DNA from: Microcaldota archaeon
GTDB taxonomy: Archaea > Micrarchaeota > Micrarchaeia > Micrarchaeales > Micrarchaeaceae
Reading direction: 5' to 3'
DNA length: 64,000 nucleotides
NCBI GenBank assembly: GCA_021807115.1
Contig: JAKAPJ010000002.1
Location: 1-64,000 of the forward strand
Of this stretch, positions 15,873 to 63,674 are shown one piece after another (the first letter of the stretch is position 1; each line of letters starts with the position of its first letter). The position numbers were made by a program, and so were the translations under genes. Under the pieces are notes generated by a model that was not told the origin of the DNA, ran no database searches, and worked only from the letters and a program-made list of their open reading frames with translations.

Positions 15873-16748
15873 TCACGTCGGGCCGCTGTAGGTGTCTGCC
15901 CATGTGCCGCTGAACCCTGTGCCCATGTTCTGGCCGTTCTGGTTGTTCCCGCCGTAGTCGTTGGTGTTGCCGTTGAGTGGCCACCACTCTGTGATGTTCT
16001 CTGGCCGCACCGGCGCGCCGCCTATGCCCTCTTGGTACAGCGCCAGTATCTCCGCGGCCGACAGCGACGTGTTGTATATCTGCACATTCGCGATGTCTCC
16101 CTGGAACCACTGCGAACTAGTGTCGCTGCCTATGGATATAGAGCCTGGAGGCTGCGTAAGCGAGCCGGAGGTAGAGCAGCACGGTCCGCCGGCAAGCTGC
16201 CCGTTTACGTACAGCGTAAGCTGCGAGCCATCGTAGACCCCTGTTATGAATGTCCATGTGTCGAGGGGAAATGCGTTGTTCTGCGAGACCACCGGTCCCA
16301 CCCAGCCTCCGTTGTTGATCCAGAAATCCCCCTCCGCGTTGCCGTTTGCGTTCAGGCTCATGAAGAAACTGTCGTGTGGCGTGTTGTCGTTGCCCACCAC
16401 CTCCCTCCTGCTCCCTGTAAGCAGTGTGGGGTACACCCAGGCGGAAACGGTTATCCGTGCTGGGCCTATGTTTATTGGATTGTTCACCACTACGTTTGAG
16501 CTGCCGCCGTCGAACACTGCGACGAACTGCGGCAGCTCCGGGCTGCAAAGCCCCGCGAGCTGGTGCGTGGTGGACGATCCGCTGCCGACAACCTGCACCT
16601 GGCACTGCCCCGCCTTGGCCTTTGGCGCGAAGCTCGCAGTGCTGAATACCCCGAGCTGGAAGAGCACGCCCAATATGACTGCGATGACAAGTATCGCCCA
16701 CCCATATGTCATCAGGTACTCCATCGCGGACTGTGATCTCATGCGCAT
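15873..16748 (-). CDS. Class III signal peptide (pilin-like) + LamG/ConA-like domain surface protein, copy 1
   Basis: MRMRSQSAMEYLMTYGWAILVIAVILGVLFQLGVF; LamG-like ITVSAWVYPT...WTFITGVYDGSQLTLYVNGQLAG; C-terminal EGIGGAPVRPENITEWWPLNGNTNDYGGNNQNGQ. Confidence 0.85.
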   Translation of the reverse strand: MRMRSQSAMEYLMTYGWAILVIAVILGVLFQLGVFSTASFAPKAKAGQCQVQVVGSGSSTTHQLAGLCSPELPQFVAVFDGGSSNVVVNNPINIGPARITVSAWVYPTLLTGSRREVVGNDNTPHDSFFMSLNANGNAEGDFWINNGGWVGPVVSQNNAFPLDTWTFITGVYDGSQLTLYVNGQLAGGPCCSTSGSLTQPPGSISIGSDTSSQWFQGDIANVQIYNTSLSAAEILALYQEGIGGAPVRPENITEWWPLNGNTNDYGGNNQNGQNMGTGFSGTWADTYSGPT

Positions 16749-16752
16749 GCCT

Positions 16753-17604
16753 CTACGGTGCAGTATATCCAGTGGTCCAAAAACTCGTATAGCCAACTGC
16801 AGCTCCCTGGCCGTTGTTGTCGTTTCCCGAATAATCGTTGAGGTTGCCGTTGAGTGGCCACCATCCCACTATGTTCTGCGGCTTTACCGGCGCGCCGCCT
16901 ATGCCTTCCTGGTAGAGCGCGGCCAGCTCCGCCGCCGTCAAAGAGGTGTTGTAGATTTGTATGTCTGCTTCATAGCCGTTTACGTAGTATGCAGTAAGGG
17001 CAGTTGTAATCGGACTAATCGTTACTCCTGTATATGTGCCGCTCTGGACAACCTGGCCATCGAAATAGAGTATGTAATTCGTATTGCTGCCGGAATCCTG
17101 CGCGGCTATCGCAAGGAAATGCCAGGTGTCGTAGGCAATCGGGGTAGAATACGATATATCGCTATGCGAACCGGGATCACCCAATACGTATGATGACGGG
17201 TTGCTGTCCAGCCTCCACACACAACAGCTTATTATCGAATTGCCTGCGTCCAAAAATCGCTGATCCGGGCTGGACGATGTCCCTAAAACGTTGAACCAAA
17301 CTGCCATAGTGCCCGCGGTTGGGAATGGATTACTGGGCGGATTTAGCGTGATGCAGGGATTGCAGGTGCCTGGAAGCTTTGCCACATACTCCGGCTCCTC
17401 GCCCTGGCACATCCCGGCTAGTTGGTGCGTGGTGGACGATCCGCTGCCGAGTACCTGCACCTGGCACTGCCCGGCCTTCGCCTTTGGTGTCAAGTTAGCC
17501 GTGTTGAACACCCCGAGCTGGAAGAGGATGCCCAGGACCACGGCTATGACGAGTATCGCCCACCCGTAGGTCATCAGGTACTCCATCGCGGACTGCGATC
17601 TCAT
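16753..17604 (-). CDS. Class III signal peptide (pilin-like) + LamG-like surface protein, copy 2
   Basis: MRSQSAMEYLMTYGWAILVIAVVLGILFQLGVF...; C-terminal EGIGGAPVKPQNIVGWWPLNGNLNDYSGNDNNGQG. Confidence 0.85.
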   Translation of the reverse strand: MRSQSAMEYLMTYGWAILVIAVVLGILFQLGVFNTANLTPKAKAGQCQVQVLGSGSSTTHQLAGMCQGEEPEYVAKLPGTCNPCITLNPPSNPFPTAGTMAVWFNVLGTSSSPDQRFLDAGNSIISCCVWRLDSNPSSYVLGDPGSHSDISYSTPIAYDTWHFLAIAAQDSGSNTNYILYFDGQVVQSGTYTGVTISPITTALTAYYVNGYEADIQIYNTSLTAAELAALYQEGIGGAPVKPQNIVGWWPLNGNLNDYSGNDNNGQGAAVGYTSFWTTGYTAP

Positions 17605-22703: not shown

Positions 22704-23585
22704 TCAGGGCTGCGTATACCCGTTTGTCCACGAGCTGCTGTATCCCACATCAGCCCCCTGTCCGTTGTTGTTGTTTCCAGAGTAGTCGTTGGTGTTGCCG
22801 TTGAGCGGCCACCAGCCTACTATGTTCTGGGGCCGCACCGGCGCGCCGCCTATGCCCTCCTGGTAGAGCGCAGTGATCTCCGCCTGGGACAATGAAGCGT
22901 TGTACAGCTGGACATTTGCCATGTCCCCGTCCAGCGCCGAGCTGGATGTAGGGGTTCCGCTTATTGAGGGGCCTATCTCGAAATAGTTGACAACGCTTGA
23001 TGTGCCCAAGGTGCCGGTCACCGGGCCAGACGGTGCGCTCGCCACGCCGTTTATGTAGAAGTACATGTCACCTCCGCTTGCCCACGTGAATGCCAGATTG
23101 TACCATGTATTCGGGGCGAACGAGTATGTCGTGGACACGCAGCCTGTCCAGGCTCCGCCGTTGTTTATCGTGTAGCAGAACGTGGGATTGTTGGGCTCAG
23201 AGAATTTCAGGCCGTAAAGCGATTCCTCGTCCACCCACCCATTCTGGCCCGATGAAGGTATGCTTTGGGCATTGAACCACAGGCTTATCGTTATTGCCGA
23301 GCCACCTGCCAGCACCGCATTAGAATCAAGGTATATGTTGCTGTTTCCTCCATTGAACTGCGCCACGAACTGCGGCAGCTCAGAACTGCACAGCCCAGCG
23401 AGCTGGTGCGTTGACGACGAGCCGCCGCCCACAACCTGCACCTGGCACTGCCCGGCCTTGGCCTTAGGAGCGAGGTTTGCGGAGCCGAAGACGCCGAGCT
23501 GGAAGAGTACCCCCAGGATCACGGCTATGACCAGTATCGCCCACCCGTATGTCATCAGGTACTCCATCGCAGACTGTGACCGCAT
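22704..23585 (-). CDS. Class III signal peptide (pilin-like) + LamG-like surface protein, copy 3
   Basis: MRSQSAMEYLMTYGWAILVIAVILGVLFQLGVFGSANLAPKAKAGQCQVQVVGGGSSSTHQLAGLC...EGIGGAPVRPQNIVGWWPLNGNTNDYSGNNNNGQG. Confidence 0.85.
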   Translation of the reverse strand: MRSQSAMEYLMTYGWAILVIAVILGVLFQLGVFGSANLAPKAKAGQCQVQVVGGGSSSTHQLAGLCSSELPQFVAQFNGGNSNIYLDSNAVLAGGSAITISLWFNAQSIPSSGQNGWVDEESLYGLKFSEPNNPTFCYTINNGGAWTGCVSTTYSFAPNTWYNLAFTWASGGDMYFYINGVASAPSGPVTGTLGTSSVVNYFEIGPSISGTPTSSSALDGDMANVQLYNASLSQAEITALYQEGIGGAPVRPQNIVGWWPLNGNTNDYSGNNNNGQGADVGYSSSWTNGYTQP

Positions 23586-23598
23586 CTTACAACCGCGA

Positions 23599-24699
23599 CT
23601 ATCTGTCCGTTTCGGCGAATATTATGTCCAGGCTTCCAAATACCGCGAATATGTCGGCGAATTTGCCTCCCTCGCACAGCTTCGGCAGAACGGCGAGGTT
23701 GACGAATCCCGGTGCCCGCAGCGACACCCTGTAGGGCTTCTGCTTGTCCGGGACCATGTATATGAGCCCCTCTCCCTTCGGCAGCTCCCTCCTCGCTACA
23801 ACAATGTCGGGCTTGGCCGGGGTGCTTATCATCTTCACCTGGGCACCCAGAACGTCGCCGCCGTTCTTTGGCAGCATCTCCAGTGCCTGCCTGATTATCC
23901 TTATGCTCTGGAATATCTCCTCGTAGCGCACCCTGTACCTGGCGTATGCGTCCCCTTCGTTCTTCACCGGCACGTCGAAGAGGACCTTGTCGTAGATGTA
24001 GTAAGGCTTTGACTTCCTGACATCCTCGTTCACCCCCGATGCACGCAGCACCGGTCCGCTGACCCCGTAGTTTATGGCATCCTCCCTGCTCAGCACCCCT
24101 ACGTCGCGCAGCCTCTCAAGGAATATCTCGTTGCGGTCCAGGACCTTCTCGTACTCCGCCACGTTCTTCTCTATGATGTCGCAGAGCGTGTACGACCTGT
24201 CTATGAAGTCGCCGGGTAGCTGGCTGTGCAGCCCGCCCACCCTCATGTTTACGTAGAACATCCTGCTTCCCGCCACGTCCTCCAGCAGCTTCAGCACATA
24301 CGATCGGTCCCTGAAGCACCACATGAAAACCGTGAACATCTGGCCTATGTCGTTGGCAAGCGTGCCTATCCAGAGCAGGTGGTTCGCTATCCTCTGGAAC
24401 TCCAGCAATATGGTCCTTGCCACCTGCGCGTCCGGCTTTACGGTTGCACCCATGGCCTGCTCCACCGCCGCCACATACAGTTCGTCCCAGCTCATCGGCG
24501 ACATGTAGTCGAGCTTCTCGAAGTACGAGGGGTTCTGCATGTACATCCTGGTCTCGCACAGCTTCTCCACGCCCCTGTGCAGGAAGCCTATGTGGGTCTC
24601 AACGTGCTTCACCTCGTCTCCGTCCACGTCCACCACAAGGCGCAGCACTCCGTGGGTGCTTGGGTGCACAGGGCCTACGTTTATCCTCATTACTGCCAT
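23599..24699 (-). CDS. nuoD: NADH-quinone oxidoreductase-type subunit D (49 kDa)
   Basis: MRINVGPVHPSTHGVLRLVVDVDGDEV..HIGFLHRGVEKLCE. Confidence 0.92.
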   Translation of the reverse strand: MAVMRINVGPVHPSTHGVLRLVVDVDGDEVKHVETHIGFLHRGVEKLCETRMYMQNPSYFEKLDYMSPMSWDELYVAAVEQAMGATVKPDAQVARTILLEFQRIANHLLWIGTLANDIGQMFTVFMWCFRDRSYVLKLLEDVAGSRMFYVNMRVGGLHSQLPGDFIDRSYTLCDIIEKNVAEYEKVLDRNEIFLERLRDVGVLSREDAINYGVSGPVLRASGVNEDVRKSKPYYIYDKVLFDVPVKNEGDAYARYRVRYEEIFQSIRIIRQALEMLPKNGGDVLGAQVKMISTPAKPDIVVARRELPKGEGLIYMVPDKQKPYRVSLRAPGFVNLAVLPKLCEGGKFADIFAVFGSLDIIFAETDR

Positions 24700-24701
24700 G
24701 A

Positions 24702-25079
24702 TTATACCTTCCTGTAGTCGCCGCCCCACGCGAAGCTCTTCCTCATGGGCGGGTCGACTCCGTCCCATTCTTCAAGCAGCAGCCTCTTGGCCTCCCTGCC
24801 CTTCACCTCTATGCCGAACATCTCCTGCAGCTCCCTCTCGTACCAGTCCGCGGCCTTGTAGAGGTCCATAACGCTGTCTATCTCCGGCCGTTCCGCAGGC
24901 AGCTTTACCTTCACTATCTCCTGCGCCTTGGTATCGGTGTTGTAAAGTATGTACACCACCTCAAGGTACTGCACGTAGTCCACGGCAGTTATCTTGTTGA
25001 GATAGTCAAAGCCGCTCCGCTTCATTTCTCCTAAGTGTTTCACTAAGGTTTCTTTCGGAATCTCCGACAACTGTACCAC
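24702..25079 (-). CDS. nuoC: NADH-quinone oxidoreductase-type subunit C (30 kDa)
   Basis: GFDYLNKITAVDYVQYLEVVYIL..., WYERELQEMFGIEVKGREAKRLLLEEW. Confidence 0.88.
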   Translation of the reverse strand: MVQLSEIPKETLVKHLGEMKRSGFDYLNKITAVDYVQYLEVVYILYNTDTKAQEIVKVKLPAERPEIDSVMDLYKAADWYERELQEMFGIEVKGREAKRLLLEEWDGVDPPMRKSFAWGGDYRKV

Positions 25080-35001: not shown

Positions 35002-35994
35002 TTGGATTTCAAAGCGCTGGAGTTCAGGCAGAACCTGAAGATACTCATAATGTTCCTAATAGTCCAGTTTTTCGGCCTATTCATGGCCGCTGCCGTCTAC
35101 AGCGGCGCGCAGGAGACCCAGCTCAACAGCGCGCAGGTCGGCGCATCGATAAACTACGCGCTCAGCTACATAGTCGGGATCCTTCTGTTCACATTGGTGC
35201 TCCTGTTCATAATAAAGAAGGCCCGGAGCGACAAGGTATTCATAATACTCGAGGCGTTCGCCGTAGGCGGGGCGTCGTTCATAGCGTTCCTGGTGCTCAT
35301 AGGGGTCGCGACGAACACAGTGCAGTCCACAATATACGGCAACAGCGTGACATACGAGGACGCGGCTGCCCTGATTCTTGCCGCATCCCTGATACTCGCC
35401 AAGAACAAGTGGCCCAGGCTGCGCAACACGGTCTCGATACTGTCCAGCGCAGGGCTGGGCTTCTTCATAGGCATAAACCTTACGTTCCCCGCGGTGTACG
35501 TGTTCATGGTGCTGCTAGCAGTGTACGATTTCATAGCGGTGTTCGTTACCAAGCACATGGTCGTGATGGGCGAGCGGATGTCGGGAATGAACCTGGCATT
35601 CCTGGTGGGCGCCAGCGAGGCCGAAGCGGTTCCGCGCCGCAAGCTGTCAAGGGAGGAGCTGGAGAAGGCGGCGAAGCACCGGCAGATATTCGAGAAGCAG
35701 GGCAACCTGCTCAAGGCTCTCGCCCGCCAGCACCTTGTGCCTGTCTATGCCAGGCGGGAGTTGGGCAACGGCGACCTTGCGGTCCCGCTGATGGCCGCGG
35801 TCTCAGCATACCAGATGACATTCAGCTTCATGACAAGCTTCGTGGTCATATTCGGCGCAACGTTCGGCCTGCTGCTCACGTTCTACGTGCTGAACAGGTA
35901 CAAGAGGGCGCTGCCCGCGATACCCCCGCTGCTGTTCGGAATCACTGTCGCGCTGTTAGTGTACGTACTACTTGGGGGCAGCAACCTGCTTTAG
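35002..35994 (+). CDS. Presenilin-type intramembrane aspartyl protease
   Basis: Multi-TM; YDFIAVFVTKHM (YD), GNGDLAVPLM (GxGD-type), LPAIPPLL (PAL-like); TTG start. Confidence 0.82.
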   Translation: MDFKALEFRQNLKILIMFLIVQFFGLFMAAAVYSGAQETQLNSAQVGASINYALSYIVGILLFTLVLLFIIKKARSDKVFIILEAFAVGGASFIAFLVLIGVATNTVQSTIYGNSVTYEDAAALILAASLILAKNKWPRLRNTVSILSSAGLGFFIGINLTFPAVYVFMVLLAVYDFIAVFVTKHMVVMGERMSGMNLAFLVGASEAEAVPRRKLSREELEKAAKHRQIFEKQGNLLKALARQHLVPVYARRELGNGDLAVPLMAAVSAYQMTFSFMTSFVVIFGATFGLLLTFYVLNRYKRALPAIPPLLFGITVALLVYVLLGGSNLL

Positions 35995-37806
35995 CGCCCC
36001 TCCCCAGAATCCGCCTATGGACTCCATTATGTCATTGCTACCCATCAGTGGCACGCTGTTGCCTATGAGCGAGGAGTAGAGCCCCCACCTGTAGCGGCTG
36101 TCCATGAAGACTATCACCGCGCGGTCGGTCTCGCTCCTCACCGCCCTCCCCGCCGCCTGTATCGCCCTTATTACCGCAGGTATGGTATATGCGTAGTCCG
36201 CCCCCTGCCCCTGGAACCTCTTGTCCAGGTAGCCTATCCTCGCGCTCGTCTCAAGGTTCGGCCGCGACAGGGGTATGCCAACCACTATGACGCACTTGAT
36301 TATGTTGTTCGCGTAGTCTATCCCCTCGCTCAGGCTGCCCCCCATAACGCCCATCAGCACAGCCCCGCTTGACTCCTTGAATCCCCTGAGCAGGCCCTCA
36401 ACCGCAACGCTCTTCATGCCTCTGCGCTGGACGAACACCTCTACCCCGTCTATGAACCTGAACACCCCCTCAAGCACATCAAAGCTGGGGAAGAACACCG
36501 CCACGTTGCCCGGTATCCTGCCCTTTATATCAAGGATCCTCGCGGCTATCTTCTTGTACTCCCCGGGGGACCGGCTCTCGTACCTTGTGGTCACAGAGTC
36601 GTCTATCACCGCCATCCTGTTTTGTTTCGGGAACGGGGAGGCGTAGTTTCGCATCTCCGCGCCCTCGGACCCGAGCAGCTCCGCGTACATCCGCAGCGGC
36701 AGCATCGTCGCGCTCATGAAAACGTTGGCGTACGATTCCCTCATTATCTGCAGCGAGCTGGCAGGATAGAGGCAGGTTATCGATATCCTCACGCCCTTGC
36801 CGTGCCTGGACAGTATCTTTGCGGTGGACGGGTCCGCGCGTGACCAGCTGGCCAGGAAGCGTGAGATGTGCATCAGCGCGGAGCGCTTCGCCTTGGTCTT
36901 CTCAGTGTACTCCATTGCGGCCTTCTCCAGCTGCTCGGTTATCGTCCCAATGTTGGAGACTATCTCATCTGGCATGTCCCCCTCCACCACGAATGCCTCG
37001 CTCTTAGACTGCAGCTTCTTTTCTGCCATCCTCTCCAGCGTGAACTTCAGGTAGCTCAGGTCCACCCCTCCCCCGACCTCCCGCAGCTCGCCTGCCGCGT
37101 TGTCTATCGCAAGTGTGCTTAGCGATGAGCTCATGTAGGAGTTAGCGGCGCTTATTATGTTGTGAGCCTCGTCCCATATCAGTATTTTGTCCTCCAGTCC
37201 CTGCCCTATCTTCTTGAGGAACGTCTGCTTGGTGTATGGGTTGAGGAAGTGCGCGTAGTCCGCCACTATGACCCTCGAGTTCCTGGCAAGGCGCGCGGAT
37301 ATCTCGTACGCGCACACCCCGTGGTCGAACGACGCCTTCAGCAGCGCGCCGTGCCCCGAGCAGCCAGCTTCGGGAATGTCGGCGGGTAGGCTGTCCTTGT
37401 ACCTGTCCTTCGCGGCGGTGTAAAACCTGCATGATCCTTTCTTTACCCTGTCATCGCACGCGCGGTAGAACAGCTCGCTGTCGAGCATGTTGACCTCCTG
37501 GTTCACGCACAGGTTGAGCTTGCCAACCATGTCGGTGAACGACAGGTCCACCGAGAACTTCCTTTTAATCCCCTGCAGGACCTCCAGCGCGATCCTGTGC
37601 TGCGATATCTTTGGAGTCAGGAAGAAAACCCCCAGGCCGTTCTCCATCGCGAGTGTGAGCGCCGCACCTATGGATGCATCAGTCTTCCCTATGCCCGTTG
37701 GCGCGTTTATGAGTATGTCCCTCTTCGCGGACAGCGCCTCGTAAATGTCCCTTAGCATAAGCTCCTGGTACTGCCTGGGGCTGTCAAACCTGAACAATTG
37801 CTGCAT
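35968..37806 (-). CDS. xpd: XPD/Rad3-family DNA helicase
   Basis: INAPTGIGKTDASIG, Cys-rich FeS region (C-VN..ACDDRVKKGSC..GC..VC), IWDEAHNI, RPNLETSARIGYLDKRF, QAAGRAVRSETDRAVIVFMDSRY. Confidence 0.9.
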   Translation of the reverse strand: MQQLFRFDSPRQYQELMLRDIYEALSAKRDILINAPTGIGKTDASIGAALTLAMENGLGVFFLTPKISQHRIALEVLQGIKRKFSVDLSFTDMVGKLNLCVNQEVNMLDSELFYRACDDRVKKGSCRFYTAAKDRYKDSLPADIPEAGCSGHGALLKASFDHGVCAYEISARLARNSRVIVADYAHFLNPYTKQTFLKKIGQGLEDKILIWDEAHNIISAANSYMSSSLSTLAIDNAAGELREVGGGVDLSYLKFTLERMAEKKLQSKSEAFVVEGDMPDEIVSNIGTITEQLEKAAMEYTEKTKAKRSALMHISRFLASWSRADPSTAKILSRHGKGVRISITCLYPASSLQIMRESYANVFMSATMLPLRMYAELLGSEGAEMRNYASPFPKQNRMAVIDDSVTTRYESRSPGEYKKIAARILDIKGRIPGNVAVFFPSFDVLEGVFRFIDGVEVFVQRRGMKSVAVEGLLRGFKESSGAVLMGVMGGSLSEGIDYANNIIKCVIVVGIPLSRPNLETSARIGYLDKRFQGQGADYAYTIPAVIRAIQAAGRAVRSETDRAVIVFMDSRYRWGLYSSLIGNSVPLMGSNDIMESIGGFWGGALKQVAAPK

Positions 37807-37919
37807 ACTTCATATTGTGCGTTCAAAGCTTAATAATCCGCCAGCACTGCACTTGGCGGACGCCGTTTCAAAACATCAAAAAGTATTTATTCGCATTTTT
37901 GAAATCTATTTTCGATCAT

Positions 37920-38912
37920 ATGCGGCGGCGCAGGGGAGCCCCCGCGCATAACACAGGAACGATACGGGCGCGGCACATACATAAGTTCGGCGTAGGTTGC
38001 GCCACTTCAGCAACCGCAAGCACGCGGTCACAGTCCGCGATGGAGTACCTGATGACATACGGGTGGGCGATACTGGTCATAGCCGTGATCCTGGGGGTAC
38101 TCTTCCAGCTCGGCGTCTTCGGCTCCGCAAACCTCGCTCCGAAGGCCAAGGCCGGGCAGTGCCAGGTGCAGGTTGTGGGCGGCGGCTCCTCGTCAACGCA
38201 CCAGCTTGCGGGGCTTTGCAGCCCCGAGCTACCGCAGTACGTTGCGGTGTTCAACGGGCAGTCCAATGGCGCAGAAATCTCCACCCCTATTTATTTTCCC
38301 AGTGGCACTGCAGAGTCGAATTTCACTCTTTCTGCCTGGATATACCCAACATCCTCTCAGGACCAGCCCGGCGGGATTGTTGATTCTGATAACGGTATCA
38401 ACGGATGGGGGCTTTATTACTTCTACGGCTCCCCGGGCTATGCTGATTTCTGGATACTGGGGCAGGGATATTCGCAGGACATGGGGTTCGGCTCAATCCC
38501 GTCAAACCAGTGGACTTTTGTGGCAATAACATACTACAAGTCAGGCGGAAATTATTACGCAAGCGGCTACGTGAACGGGAACTCCGTTGATTCGAACGTC
38601 CAGCGCGGTGCCATAGTCCTTCCCATACCTCCCAGTTATACATTGCAGATTGGCGACATAAGGTACGGATGCTGCTACTATTTTGGAGGGAATATCGCAA
38701 ATGTCCAGCTTTACAACGCCACCCTGTCCCAGGCGGAAATGACTGCATTGTACGACGAGGGGATAGGCGGCGCACCTGTGCGGCCGCAGAACGTGACCGG
38801 CTGGTGGCCCCTCAACGGCAATGCGAACGACTACAGCGGGAACAACTACAACGGCCAGAACAACGGCGCGGGATACAGCAGCTTCTGGGACACCGGATAT
38901 ACTGCTCCGTGA
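37920..38912 (+). CDS. Class III signal peptide + LamG-like surface protein, copy 4 (canonical start codon lost or N-terminally extended)
   Basis: ...STRSQSAMEYLMTYGWAILVIAVILGVLFQLGVFGSANLAPKAKAG...EGIGGAPVRPQNVTGWWPLNGNANDYSGNNYNGQN; ACG replaces ATG at the paralog start position. Confidence 0.65.
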   Translation: MRRRRGAPAHNTGTIRARHIHKFGVGCATSATASTRSQSAMEYLMTYGWAILVIAVILGVLFQLGVFGSANLAPKAKAGQCQVQVVGGGSSSTHQLAGLCSPELPQYVAVFNGQSNGAEISTPIYFPSGTAESNFTLSAWIYPTSSQDQPGGIVDSDNGINGWGLYYFYGSPGYADFWILGQGYSQDMGFGSIPSNQWTFVAITYYKSGGNYYASGYVNGNSVDSNVQRGAIVLPIPPSYTLQIGDIRYGCCYYFGGNIANVQLYNATLSQAEMTALYDEGIGGAPVRPQNVTGWWPLNGNANDYSGNNYNGQNNGAGYSSFWDTGYTAP

Positions 38913-39823
38913 TGATCATGAGGTCACAAAGCGCAATGGAGTACCTGATGACATACGGATGGGCGATACTTGTCATCGCAGTCATATTGGGGGTCCTCTT
39001 CCAACTCGGAGTCTTCGGCAGCGCGAGCCTCGCGCCCAAGGCGAAGGCCGGGCAGTGCCAGGTGCAGATACTCGGCAGCGGGTCCTCCACCACGCACCAG
39101 CTTGCGGGGCTTTGCAGCCCAGAGCTACCGCAGTACGTGGCGCAACTATCCGGAACCGGCGCAGTGACCGCAACAGTCCCGTCCTCGTTGACCCCTTCGA
39201 CTGGATATACCGTAACACTATGGTTCGAGCGCACATGGAGCACAAATGACGGGGTGACTCATGGGATATTTTCTGTCGGGGGCGGCTGTGGGTTTCCGGG
39301 CTCCAGCGGCGGAAGCTGCGATTACAACACAATAGAGATATTCAAGTACCAGACCAACCAGTGGTACTTCAGGACATGGAGCCCGAACGGCCCAAACTGC
39401 GACATAAACATACCCGATTCCTCCATATCCGGCAGCGTTTGGCACCAGATAACTTTCGAGGATGTGAGCGGGAGCCAGCTCAGTGTCTGGATAGACGACG
39501 GCACGCCCACCACATGCTCGCAGAGCTCCACCGTAACCGCGTGGCAGACGTCCAACATGTATATTGGCGAGGGCTATGGACCATCATCTCTAATAGGGTC
39601 CATAGCAAACCTGCAGCTGTACAACACCACACTTTCCACCGCAGAGGTGCAGGCCCTCTATCAGGAAGGTATAGGCGGCGCGCCCATCCGCCCGCAGAAC
39701 CTTGTTGGCTGGTGGCCCCTCAACGGCAACTTCAATGACTATAGCGGCGACAACGACAACGGCCAAGGGGCGAGTGTGGGATTCAGCGGCGCGTGGTCAA
39801 GCACATATAGCGGCCCGGCATAA
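38912..39823 (+). CDS. Class III signal peptide + LamG-like surface protein, copy 5
   Basis: MIMRSQSAMEYLMTYGWAILVIAVILGVLFQLGVFGSASLAPKAKAG...EGIGGAPIRPQNLVGWWPLNGNFNDYSGDNDNGQG; ATGA overlap with copy 4. Confidence 0.85.
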   Translation: MIMRSQSAMEYLMTYGWAILVIAVILGVLFQLGVFGSASLAPKAKAGQCQVQILGSGSSTTHQLAGLCSPELPQYVAQLSGTGAVTATVPSSLTPSTGYTVTLWFERTWSTNDGVTHGIFSVGGGCGFPGSSGGSCDYNTIEIFKYQTNQWYFRTWSPNGPNCDINIPDSSISGSVWHQITFEDVSGSQLSVWIDDGTPTTCSQSSTVTAWQTSNMYIGEGYGPSSLIGSIANLQLYNTTLSTAEVQALYQEGIGGAPIRPQNLVGWWPLNGNFNDYSGDNDNGQGASVGFSGAWSSTYSGPA

Positions 39824-48620: not shown

Positions 48621-49199
48621 TTGACGCGCATGAATAACGGGAAGCGGCTACGCGCCGGAAGGGCAGAGATCATCGCATCGCTGCTAGCGTTTGCATTGTC
48701 TTTCTCCGCTGTCATGCTGTTCCTAGTGCTCGGCGCAGGTAGGGCGTCTGGCTACACTGCGACAACCAACACGGTTGGAGTGGTCAATGTCCTTGGAACG
48801 TGCTTCATATTCCTTACCCCAAACATAATAAACTTCGGAAGCATAGAGCCCGGCTCAAACAGCGGCATAGCAAATGTAGTAACAGACAACGACCTTTTCG
48901 GTAACGTCAACGCGAACATGATGCTTTACGGGACAAACTGGTGCGCACCGAACCTGTCGACATGCTCGAACACGTTCCAGGTAACAAATACGGCCTGGAA
49001 CCCGACATCGAACACACTCTTCTACCCAACAGTGGGCAACCAGCTGCAGTTGCAGGCCGCGATGGCCGACACCGGCATAGTCGTGGGTTTCGGTTCGGCG
49101 GCGCAGCCGGGGTCCAACGTGTATTTCGGGGTCGCAATACCTCCAAGCCAGCCGCTTGGCCTATATACGCAGAACATTATAATAGAGAATTCATGCTGA
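48621..49199 (+). CDS. Small secreted 'C-terminal Cys' family protein, paralog B
   Basis: GTCFIFLTPNIINFGSIEPGSN...; NVYFGVAIPPSQPLGLYTQNIIIENSC*. Confidence 0.82.
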   Translation: MTRMNNGKRLRAGRAEIIASLLAFALSFSAVMLFLVLGAGRASGYTATTNTVGVVNVLGTCFIFLTPNIINFGSIEPGSNSGIANVVTDNDLFGNVNANMMLYGTNWCAPNLSTCSNTFQVTNTAWNPTSNTLFYPTVGNQLQLQAAMADTGIVVGFGSAAQPGSNVYFGVAIPPSQPLGLYTQNIIIENSC

Positions 49200-49211
49200 A
49201 GGTGTAATACG

Positions 49212-49874
49212 ATGCAGAAGCAAAACAATGTAAGGATGTCGCGCACTGAACTGCTGGCAGTGGCAGTCGTGGCAGTGGCCACCTTCTCCGTATTCCTTGC
49301 GCTTGCCTTCAACCTTGACTTCATACCGCTTGCAAGTGCGGCATACAACTCGCCTTCAAACGTGGTGGCAACCGCCAACGTGCTTTCCATATGCTTTACT
49401 GTGCTGACGCCCAATGGGCTCAATGGGTACCAGGTGATAACCCCGGCCAACGTTGCAAACGACCTAGTGTTCGGCGGCGGAGTGTTCGGCGGCGGCACCA
49501 ACGGGATAAGCCCGACCTTCAGCGTGCCTACCTCAGTGCAGCTCATAGACAATGACATAGGCGGCAACGCAAACGCCAACGTGCTGATAGCCGGATCCAA
49601 CTGGTTCCAGGTTACAAACTCCGCAAATACGTTCTACGAGTACGGCAACATACTGTGGAACCCCGTGACCTTAGGCACCTTCAGCGGCAATGACCTCAAC
49701 CTATACAACGGGCAGTCTGCATCGCTTGGCGCAACAAACATATTCATAACAGCCCCGGCAGTCCCATCCCCGACCAACGGTGTGGCTGCCAATATATTCT
49801 TTGGCCTCCAGATACCGTTCGGCCAGCAGTTGGGCATCTACTACGAGAACATAGTGGTAGAGAACAGCTGCTGA
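49212..49874 (+). CDS. Small secreted 'C-terminal Cys' family protein, paralog C
   Basis: MQKQNNVRMSRTELLAVAVVAV leader; ...NIFFGLQIPFGQQLGIYYENIVVENSC*. Confidence 0.82.
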   Translation: MQKQNNVRMSRTELLAVAVVAVATFSVFLALAFNLDFIPLASAAYNSPSNVVATANVLSICFTVLTPNGLNGYQVITPANVANDLVFGGGVFGGGTNGISPTFSVPTSVQLIDNDIGGNANANVLIAGSNWFQVTNSANTFYEYGNILWNPVTLGTFSGNDLNLYNGQSASLGATNIFITAPAVPSPTNGVAANIFFGLQIPFGQQLGIYYENIVVENSC

Positions 49875-50935: not shown

Positions 50936-51496
50936 ATGCTAATGCCGGCAAAAAGAAACAATATGGTCGCCGTGACAACAGTTGCGGTATCATTCCTGAT
51001 GGCTGCATCCATACTTGCGGAGTTCGCCATGCTCCAGGCATACGCATTCTCCAATGCCTCCTCCGTGAACGTGATCAATGCTATGATCACGGTAACCGGC
51101 AGCTGCTTCATATCGCTGAACACCAACGTGATAAATTTCGGCCAGATACCTGCCGGCAGCAACACGGCCCGCACCCTCAATGACATAACCGTCAACGACC
51201 CGTTCGGCAACATCGCGGCTAACGTGCTGATTTCCGGCACTAACTGGATATCTACGTCCAGCTCCGCAAACTTCTTCGTGTCAAACACGATATGGAACCC
51301 GACCAATGACTTCCTGGCTAACGGCAATGCGCTGTTACTGTTCCCGAGCCAGCCCACCGACACAAAGATAGAGATACCGGCTCCCAACGTAATCAACCCA
51401 AATACCGACAACCTGATATATTTCGGGCTGTACATACCTACGCTCACCGCACTTGGCGTATACACACAGAACATAGTGCTTGAGAACAGCTGCTGA
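50936..51496 (+). CDS. Small secreted 'C-terminal Cys' family protein, paralog D
   Basis: GSCFISLNTNVINFGQIPAGSNTARTLNDITVNDPFGNIAANVLISGTNW...LGVYTQNIVLENSC*. Confidence 0.82.
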   Translation: MLMPAKRNNMVAVTTVAVSFLMAASILAEFAMLQAYAFSNASSVNVINAMITVTGSCFISLNTNVINFGQIPAGSNTARTLNDITVNDPFGNIAANVLISGTNWISTSSSANFFVSNTIWNPTNDFLANGNALLLFPSQPTDTKIEIPAPNVINPNTDNLIYFGLYIPTLTALGVYTQNIVLENSC

Positions 51497-51498
51497 CG

Positions 51499-52068
51499 GT
51501 GCAGAACATGCAATATAAAAACAACGCAAGGATGTCGCGCGCTGAACTGCTCGCATTGGCAGCCGCCGCGGTTGTCGCATCCTCCGCCATACTTGCGACT
51601 GTGCTAAACTTCAGTGCAGTGGGCCTGGCCCTGGCCGCTACCAGCGGCACGTCCAACGTGCTTGCATCCGCCAACGTCATAGCCAGCTGCTTCATAAGCA
51701 TAAGCGACAACCAGATAAACTTCGGCAACGTCCCGGCAGGCGGAGACACGTCGACCACCCTGAACGCGATTACCGTCAACGATCCGTTCGGCAACGCGCC
51801 GGCAAACATATTCCTTTCAGGCACCTCCTGGAACGGGCCGTTAACCGCAAACTTCCAGGTGACCAACACACTATGGGCGAGCGCCGACGTTACGCTTTCA
51901 TCCGCCACCGAGCTGACCAATACGTTCGTGGACACCGCGATACAGATAGCGGCACCTAACACCGTAGTGACCAGCCCAGGCAACTTAGTCTACTTTGGCG
52001 CAAACGTACCGAAAGTCATGCCAACTGGCGTATATACGCAGAACATATTCGTCGAAAACCAGTGCTGA
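51499..52068 (+). CDS. Small secreted 'C-terminal Cys' family protein, paralog E
   Basis: NNARMSRAELLALAAAAV leader; ASCFISISDNQINFGNVPAGGDTSTTLNAITVNDPFGNAPANIFLSGTSW...GVYTQNIFVENQC*. Confidence 0.82.
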   Translation: MQNMQYKNNARMSRAELLALAAAAVVASSAILATVLNFSAVGLALAATSGTSNVLASANVIASCFISISDNQINFGNVPAGGDTSTTLNAITVNDPFGNAPANIFLSGTSWNGPLTANFQVTNTLWASADVTLSSATELTNTFVDTAIQIAAPNTVVTSPGNLVYFGANVPKVMPTGVYTQNIFVENQC

Positions 52069-58126: not shown

Positions 58127-58720
58127 TTATGTAACTTTAGCGGTAATCGAGGCTGCCTTGTCATATATGGGGTTTGGCGCCGGCGCCGGAGGTGCCTGTC
58201 CGTTCGGGCCGGGCAGCGAGTAATTTACCCATATCCACCCTGAAAACGAGGATGTCAACGGGACGTTCGACATAAGAATCCCATTCTTGTCATAGCAGTG
58301 CAATCCGGTTACAAAAAGTCTTGAATCTTGCACTACTGCAGTGGTGAGCAGGACGTTTGTGGGGTCCTGTGTTATGGCAAGCCCGTTTGCAAGTATGACC
58401 TGGTAGGGGTTAATGTTGTTGGCGGCCTCTGCGTTCCCGGTCTGGTTTATCGAGCTTGTGCACGCCATCTCCAGGTCATATATCCTAGTGTTCGCCGTGG
58501 CCTGCCCAAATGTGAAGGAGACAGTGCCATCAGAGTAAAATGTGAGGCCCTGGCAGAGGAACCCAGGCTCCCCTGTGCACACCGTAGAGGTGAAGTTGCT
58601 GCTGTTAAATACGCCTAGTGCGAACATTACCCCAAGTACTACTGCTATTATCAATATGGCCCATCCGTATGTCATTAGGTATTCCATTGCGCTCTGCGAT
58701 TTCTTGAGTGTGCCTGCCAT
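58127..58720 (-). CDS. Class III signal peptide (pilin-like) protein without LamG domain
   Basis: MAGTLKKSQSAMEYLMTYGWAILIIAVVLGVMFALGVFNSSNF... Confidence 0.82.
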   Translation of the reverse strand: MAGTLKKSQSAMEYLMTYGWAILIIAVVLGVMFALGVFNSSNFTSTVCTGEPGFLCQGLTFYSDGTVSFTFGQATANTRIYDLEMACTSSINQTGNAEAANNINPYQVILANGLAITQDPTNVLLTTAVVQDSRLFVTGLHCYDKNGILMSNVPLTSSFSGWIWVNYSLPGPNGQAPPAPAPNPIYDKAASITAKVT

Positions 58721-58887: not shown

Positions 58888-59493
58888 TTAGGTTACCTTT
58901 ACGGTCACGGTCAATACCTTAGCGGTGAGCCATGGGCAGCCACTTGCCTCCATAGTGCACTGCGATGAGGTATAGTTCATCCAGATAAATCCGCTGAACG
59001 CCGCGCCTATGCTCTGCGAGCCCAGTGCGCTGCCCGTTGTGCCATAGCATGGCCAACCACTTATCTGTACGGTTTGTCCCGAAGAGAGCTGGTTCCCCAC
59101 AAGGGTGCTAACTCCTCCAGTTATCCCGTTCGCCAATCCGGGCGACCCTCCGCCAGACGCGCTCAGGAGCAGCGAATTGTACCCGCCACCTAGAGCAGTC
59201 GAGGACGGCTGGCCCGTTCCTGTCGAAGTGGCCGCGCACGCCAACTCTACATTATAGATTGTAGAGCCTGTGTTCTGCCCGAACGTGAACGACAGCGTAC
59301 CTGCATTGTTCAGGATAGGATTGCTGCACGAGTAACCCGGCGACGCGATACACGACGTGCCGAGCAGGCTCGAACCGCTGAATACTCCCAGCGAGAACAG
59401 TGCTCCCAATACCACGGCTATAATCAGTATAGCCCATCCGTATGTCATCAGATACTCCATAGCGCTTTGCGCCCTGAGGGTTCTTCCTAACAT
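58888..59493 (-). CDS. Class III signal peptide (pilin-like) protein without LamG domain
   Basis: MLGRTLRAQSAMEYLMTYGWAILIIAVVLGALFSLGVFSGSSLLGTSC... Confidence 0.82.
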   Translation of the reverse strand: MLGRTLRAQSAMEYLMTYGWAILIIAVVLGALFSLGVFSGSSLLGTSCIASPGYSCSNPILNNAGTLSFTFGQNTGSTIYNVELACAATSTGTGQPSSTALGGGYNSLLLSASGGGSPGLANGITGGVSTLVGNQLSSGQTVQISGWPCYGTTGSALGSQSIGAAFSGFIWMNYTSSQCTMEASGCPWLTAKVLTVTVKVT

Positions 59494-62984: not shown

Positions 62985-63674
62985 TCATCCCTTCTCCCCC
63001 TTCCCCTCCAGCAGTTTCACGGCTATCCCCTTCGCGTCGATGTATGCGCGGTTATCCGGATCCAGGGACAGGGCTATGTCGCATTCCCTCACCGCGTCCT
63101 CGTATCTCCCCAGCCCCACAAGGGCGTTGCACTTGCCGCCGTGTGCCGGTGCGAGCCTCCGGTCCAGCGCTATCGCCCTGTCGTACTCGCGCACCGCCGC
63201 GGTGTAGTCGGCCAGGGCAGCCAGGGCCACGGCCTTGTTGTAGTGCGCGGCCACTGATTTGGGATCCAGCCTTATCGCTGCGTCGTACTCCCTAATCGCG
63301 TCCCCATACTTGCCCAGCCACGAGAGTGCATTGCCCTTGCTGCTGTGCGCGGCGGGGTCCTTCTTGTCGAGCCATATTGCGGTGTCGTACTCCCTGATCG
63401 CGTCCTCGTACTTCCCCAGCCCCGCCAGCGCTATGCCCTTGTTGTAGTGCGCGGCTTGGAATCTAGGATCTATGCCCAGCGCGGTGTCGAACTCCTTTAT
63501 CGCATCGGCGTACCTGCCAAGGTTGTCCAGCGCTATGCCCTTGTTGTTGTACGATACCGCAAGGCCGGGATCCAGCCTTATCGCCGCGTCATAGCCCTTT
63601 ATCGCGTCCTCGTACATGCCCTGGACAAGCAGGGAATTGCCCTGTTCGTTCCAGTATAGAGCGTTCTTTTCCAT
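62985..63674 (-). CDS. TPR-repeat protein
   Basis: About six 34-aa repeats of type A.YNKGIALAGLGKYEDAIREYDTAIxLDP. Confidence 0.9.
   Translation of the reverse strand: MEKNALYWNEQGNSLLVQGMYEDAIKGYDAAIRLDPGLAVSYNNKGIALDNLGRYADAIKEFDTALGIDPRFQAAHYNKGIALAGLGKYEDAIREYDTAIWLDKKDPAAHSSKGNALSWLGKYGDAIREYDAAIRLDPKSVAAHYNKAVALAALADYTAAVREYDRAIALDRRLAPAHGGKCNALVGLGRYEDAVRECDIALSLDPDNRAYIDAKGIAVKLLEGKGEKG

Follow-up and report, generated by a model that had tools for sequence, protein, structure and literature searches.

The 64,000-nt stretch of DNA analysed here (the window) carries five members of one gene family, two of which, copies 3 and 4, lie on opposite strands and have almost the same 5′ end joined to unrelated middles. 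The question raised by this locus is how the two ends came to be so alike. The explanation favoured, and considered very probable, is that they record a recent partial ectopic conversion, one event of a genome-wide homogenization of the gene ends that spares the middles. The stretch lies on contig C19 (78.8 kb) in a Micrarchaeota genome of 1.18 Mb, assembled in 44 contigs and estimated to be 86% complete and 0.5% contaminated. A long conserved protein encoded in the window has its closest named relatives in Candidatus Micrarchaeota.

The gene family and its modules

With residues 1–79 of copy 3 as query, a search of the genome produced 38 matches, 26 of which were taken as family members. All but one of these (25 of 26, including the five window copies) align as a conserved N-module (∼75 amino acids), a hypervariable LamG middle (∼150) and a conserved C-module (∼72), and the genome contains at least 25 full copies. 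Each of the 41 genomes of the order that were searched has N-module matches. The N-module begins with RSQSAMEYLMTYGWAILVIAV, a pilin-like leader followed by a hydrophobic helix; in the copy 4 model (mean pLDDT 79.5) RSQSAMEYLMTYGW is followed by helix 6–28. The leaders are variable and in some copies long, and a Pfam search of the window copies gave no signal-peptide family at E ≤ 0.01. The coordinates of the features are collected in Table 1.

Table 1. Features of the window relevant to the family and to the shared tract (numbering of the whole stretch)
Feature	Position	Strand	Basis or remark
Copy 1 gene	15876..16742	-	family alignment
Copy 2 gene	16753..17604	-	family alignment
Copy 3 gene	22704..23585	-	13 nt downstream of 49-kDa subunit gene
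Tract in copy 3 matching that of copy 4	23401..23582	-	inverted-pair alignment
49-kDa NADH dehydrogenase-type subunit	23599..24768	-	PF00346, E=1.2e-80; synteny anchor adjoining copy 3
Helicase gene, divergent neighbour of copy 4	35968..37806	-	PF13307, PF06733
Copy 4 gene	37920..38912	+	putative start site
Copy 4 N-module (pilin-like helix, linker)	38025..38243	+	family alignment; helix 6-28 in model
Probable conversion tract, copy 4 N-module	38025..38206	+	98% to copy 3, next copy 83.5%; silent codons 54/57
Identical runs, copy 4 coordinates	11 nt from 38025; 38037-38140; 38142-38188; 38190-38206	+	alignment to reverse complement of copy 3
Copy 4 hypervariable LamG middle	38244..38693	+	Laminin_G_3, E=1.2e-19
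Copy 4 C-module (NVQLYN..WWPLNGNANDYSGN..)	38694..38909	+	family alignment
Copy 5 gene	38912..39823	+	start overlaps copy 4 stop

Copy 4 has ACG at 38022–38024, where its paralogues carry ATG. An in-frame ATG at 37920, downstream of a TATA-like GTATTTAT near 37882 (region 37880–37922), is the probable translation start and would place a 35-residue basic leader ahead of the RSQSAME motif. Long, unrelated leaders are also found in several other family copies.

The middles of copies 3 and 4 match Laminin_G_3 (PF13385) with 71–74 bits and that of copy 5 with 40.7 bits, against a curated cut-off of 27.6. A fold search returned pentraxins and other lectin-like domains, with TM scores by target of up to 0.80, and a sequence search of solved structures gave no match. 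The C-module, which is predicted with high confidence, holds late strands of the copy 4 model, and the last strand looks pentraxin-like. A circular permutation of LamG as the origin of the C-module was rejected as unneeded, since the fold search gives pentraxins and Pfam Pentaxin covers the end of copy 3. Among the 41 genomes no close relative of the copy 4 middle was found, and the copy 3 middle has one partial relative (42%), located at a contig end. In multi-LamG proteins WWPLxGNANDYSG stands ahead of each unit; the long ones carry LVGWWPLxGNANDYSG between units, and an identical motif ends the pilin-type genes.

Copies 3 and 4 appear to belong to a large dispersed family of proteins that are secreted and pilin-like and have a lectin-like LamG head. 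Such proteins may assemble into pili and could act as adhesins that attach to host cells. Elsewhere in the window, two shorter pilin-like genes (58127–58708 and 58888–59478) have the family N-terminal motif and lack both the LamG middle and the C-module. Short diverged direct repeats occur between neighbouring genes at 49155–49301, 51100–51295, 51452–51597 and 51684–51876 (69–73% identity) and within one region at 63077–63643 (66–70%).

The tract shared by copies 3 and 4

Copy 4 and the reverse complement of copy 3 are identical in runs of 11, 104, 47 and 17 nt, split by three silent single-base differences (38036, 38141 and 38189); the core at 38037–38188 is unbroken except for one of these. 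The 104-nt and 47-nt runs had been counted exactly in the first-pass annotation, which set the start of the longer run one base early, at 38036. That annotation also placed the block in a LamG copy. The tract is in the N-module and therefore in the pilin-like part of the gene, upstream of the LamG domain. Over 38025–38194 copy 4 matches copy 3 at 167 of 170 positions (98.2%), and the next best of 22 paralogues genome-wide, copy 1, matches at 142 (83.5%); the block is thus not equally similar to all copies. Identity to copy 3 falls beyond 38206, and the inverted pair 23350–23583/38024–38257 as a whole is 94% identical.

The sequence downstream had been read as a switch to copy 5, giving a mosaic of two donors. 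Copy 5 does match closely at 38195–38246 (49 of 52 positions), but the match is not specific: copies on other contigs reach 47 and 46 of 52, close to the family background, and copy 3 itself is the diverged one (43 of 52). Because other copies nearly equal its match, a second tract derived from copy 5 is not demonstrated.

At silent codons copies 3 and 4 are identical at 54 of 57 in the tract (38025–38206), 7 of 14 in the remaining N-module and 35 of 53 in the C-module; the tract differs from the rest of both end modules (42 of 67) with a Fisher p of 1.2 × 10−5. Over those columns, the remaining 252 paralogue pairs have a mean silent identity of 0.49 (sd 0.08, maximum 0.72). Constraint on the signal peptide and pilin core at the protein level, acting alone, would account for N-module matches in 41 of 41 genomes. 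However, it is scarcely credible as the cause of a tract whose silent identity so exceeds the 72% maximum of other pairs, and within-genome silent identity also lies above the codon-usage expectation. The silent-site result therefore excludes selection on the protein alone, which had been judged inadequate at first sight of the sequence.

This tract-versus-rest comparison was used in place of a Sawyer-type run test. With the N-module only, the permutation test was not significant for copies 3 and 4 (global P 0.69–1.0), the tract filling most of the block and so leaving the test without power; significance (global P 0.0025) came only from N- and C-modules together, with all sites in class A.

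Homology between the two genes starts at codon 2, with no common upstream sequence and no common flanks. Near-identity at silent sites, bounded 5′ by this end of homology and 3′ by diverged sequence, is the signature of ectopic conversion, and the case for a recent conversion involving these two inverted loci is strong. The start at codon 2 and the drop in identity past 38206 indicate that some 150–180 nt from codon 2 appear to have been replaced at the 5′ end of one of the two copies. Of duplication and conversion, the alternatives offered initially, only the latter is supported. Gene duplication is unsupported because the middles are unrelated (16% amino-acid identity when the family is aligned), the C-modules do not exceed ordinary paralogue pairs in similarity and homology stops at codon 2.

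An exact 104-nt repeat may mislead a short-k assembly, and in a bin of 44 contigs at 86% completeness a short-read assembly could have collapsed the two 5′ ends or swapped them. Such an artefact is nevertheless highly improbable. The window backbone from copy 3 to copies 4 and 5 is collinear with contig C12 of genome G013 and has the same orientation, which disfavours a chimeric join at the inverted repeats, as this would invert 23.6–38 kb; three silent differences persist in the tract; and a like pattern occurs in a genome assembled as one contig (G021, below).

Ends and middles across genomes

The same contrast between ends and middles extends beyond this pair. When 81 genes from six genomes were split into N-, middle and C-modules, the best blastp hit fell within the same genome for 79 N-modules and 66 C-modules and for 25 middles (eight of them from G021, which holds tandem duplicates), against a chance expectation of 21%. 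In module trees built from 70 genes of five genomes, the genome label changes five times for N (the minimum being four), seven times for C and 38 times for the middles, compared with 36–37 for shuffled labels; the unsorted middles are partly saturated (∼20% identity). Seven pairs of alike middles (46–70% amino-acid identity) were found, all seven between species, and, apart from the tandem duplicates of G021, no within-genome pair of middles exceeds 31%. Own-genome paralogues are closer in the N-module than the middle partner in 14–22 of 24 cases in G000, 16 of 17 in G006, 17–18 of 18 in G013 and three of three in G003. For both end modules, paralogues within a genome are thus closer than orthologues between genomes, the pattern that defines concerted evolution.

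A lineage-specific duplication, in which the family expanded in each species, the middles diverged fast under positive selection and the ends are simply young and constrained, would also make N- and C-modules cluster by genome, and it agrees with the tandem clusters and the true tandem duplicates of G021. It predicts that the most alike middles should lie within species, but the reverse is observed. Together with the missing common flanks and the ordinary C-modules of copies 3 and 4, this makes it improbable.

Within genomes, silent-codon identity of N-modules is 0.42–0.69 (in the three genomes sampled best, 0.50 in G000, 0.59 in G006 and 0.44 in G013), compared with 0.37 between genomes and 0.35–0.41 expected from codon usage. 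Conversion is thus real at the DNA level but intermittent, with selection on the protein also contributing, since most within-genome N-module pairs are far from silent identity. Other recent cases with unrelated middles are the pair 262767/267612 on contig C3 of G006 (57 of 65 silent codons) and an adjacent pair on contig C8 of G013 (56 of 60). Two family copies of G003 (C60, 24105 and 25052) have early stops and are likely to be decayed.

Exact snapshots of recombination are preserved in G021, where the stretch examined (C1, 580.9–606 kb) holds an array of eleven family copies, including three identical 855-nt genes spaced 1974 nt apart. Gene 592464 equals 593395 over nt 1–749 and equals 591530 from nt 704 to its end and into the downstream spacer, placing a crossover within a 46-nt stretch of the C-module, as from unequal crossing-over. 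The 11 differences between genes 583634 and 585608 all fall at nt 45–174 of 855. Between genes 602666 and 603603 there are 12, confined to nt 736–861, and over this part 603603 is like 593395 at 73 of 76 sites. As G021 is a separate one-contig genome, these snapshots are not errors of the window's own assembly.

Gene position adds a further consideration. Family genes occupy different junctions in the window backbone and in contig C12 of G013, and none of six alike-middle pairs shares neighbours (20-kb regions, some shortened by contig ends). In both G006 and G013 the genes for the 20-kDa and 49-kDa subunits (hydrogenase or dehydrogenase type) have a family gene between them. This position was rejected as an orthology test, the middles there being unrelated (rank 106 of 342), and both middles and N-modules are no closer than in many other cross-genome pairs. 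The first 17–23 residues of the 49-kDa protein have no match in G006 or G013. The non-synteny could reflect either frequent gene gain and loss or an exchange of middles between standing ends.

The latter would amount to cassette replacement, in which middles or whole genes move between loci or species by way of the conserved ends; the enzymes would be identical to those of end conversion and the moved segment opposite. The six non-syntenic pairs, the unrelated middles at the matching G006 and G013 position and the G021 crossover, which links the middle of one gene with the tail of another, are consistent with it. However, copies 3 and 4 have an end in common and not a middle, whole-gene insertion and loss explains the differing gene positions equally well, and an identical middle with different ends at separate loci was seen nowhere except in tandem arrays. 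Cassette replacement is a tentative alternative that may also accompany end conversion.

Conversion of the ends is most simply explained by ordinary recombination of the RadA type, constrained by homology. RadA is encoded on contig C35, Hjc on C22 and a Peptidase_A24 prepilin peptidase on C26; RadA may well be the recombinase used here. A diversity-generating retroelement was rejected, there being no RVT_1 (reverse transcriptase) match in the 86% complete genome. Five tyrosine recombinase hits are present in the genome, one of them on C29 ∼3–4 kb from two family members; none is on C19, so a site-specific recombinase beside the window copies was likewise rejected. The ends of the conversion tract fall inside coding homology. 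Homologous recombination between paralogues, probably RadA-dependent, would homogenize the N- and C-modules within each genome and could not enter the LamG middles, which would be too diverged to pair. The ends would be kept matched to the pilus assembly and export machinery of the cell, with the middles retaining an old and diverse binding repertoire.

Comparison with known systems

Contact with other microbes is essential to DPANN archaea, and to our knowledge the basis of their host recognition is largely unknown. A pilin–lectin family with concerted ends and diverse heads in a reduced genome offers a concrete and testable system, in which all LamG heads are predicted to plug into one pilus and homologous recombination would shape surface diversity in a reduced archaeal genome. 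Trees based on the conserved ends of genes of this kind sort by genome and would mislead orthology calls. It is rather doubtful, though conceivable, that the ends are kept alike so that LamG heads reassort among loci and species as a pilus-borne lectin repertoire for host recognition; if so, this recombination-driven DPANN repertoire would correspond, in archaea, to antigenic or adhesin variation.

In the Neisseria pilE/pilS system variable segments pass from silent copies into a single expression locus. The likeness lies in a pilin-like N-terminus, a variable part and homologous recombination between paralogues (PMC4877100). Here, in contrast, the conserved ends are homogenized and the middles spared, and most copies appear to be complete genes with full open frames. 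Concerted evolution by gene conversion, in which paralogues are kept alike by short non-reciprocal tracts (PMC5485169, relevant portions), is a further known counterpart; the present case differs in being confined to two end modules flanking a hypervariable core, in a DPANN archaeon with a reduced genome. Archaeal gene conversion and homologous recombination proteins have been studied in Haloferax volcanii, where conversion occurs between chromosome copies at one locus (PMC11276520), whereas here it would join different loci.

LamG domain proteins have been considered possible adhesins in Undinarchaeota (PMC7414124). In the micrarchaeon Mia14, jelly-roll LamG-like genes are expanded, some of them tied to type IV pili loci, and host cell interaction has been proposed for their products (PMC5498576, sections consulted). 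A search of the open-licence literature, which is weak evidence of absence, found no earlier report of concerted evolution of the end modules in this family. The family resembles that of Mia14 in its LamG-like expansion and differs in its modular ends, gene conversion and concerted evolution, which the consulted sections of that paper do not mention (PMC5498576). The expansion of LamG genes was thus already known, and what would be new here is the concerted evolution of both pilin–lectin ends around a spared and diverse middle.
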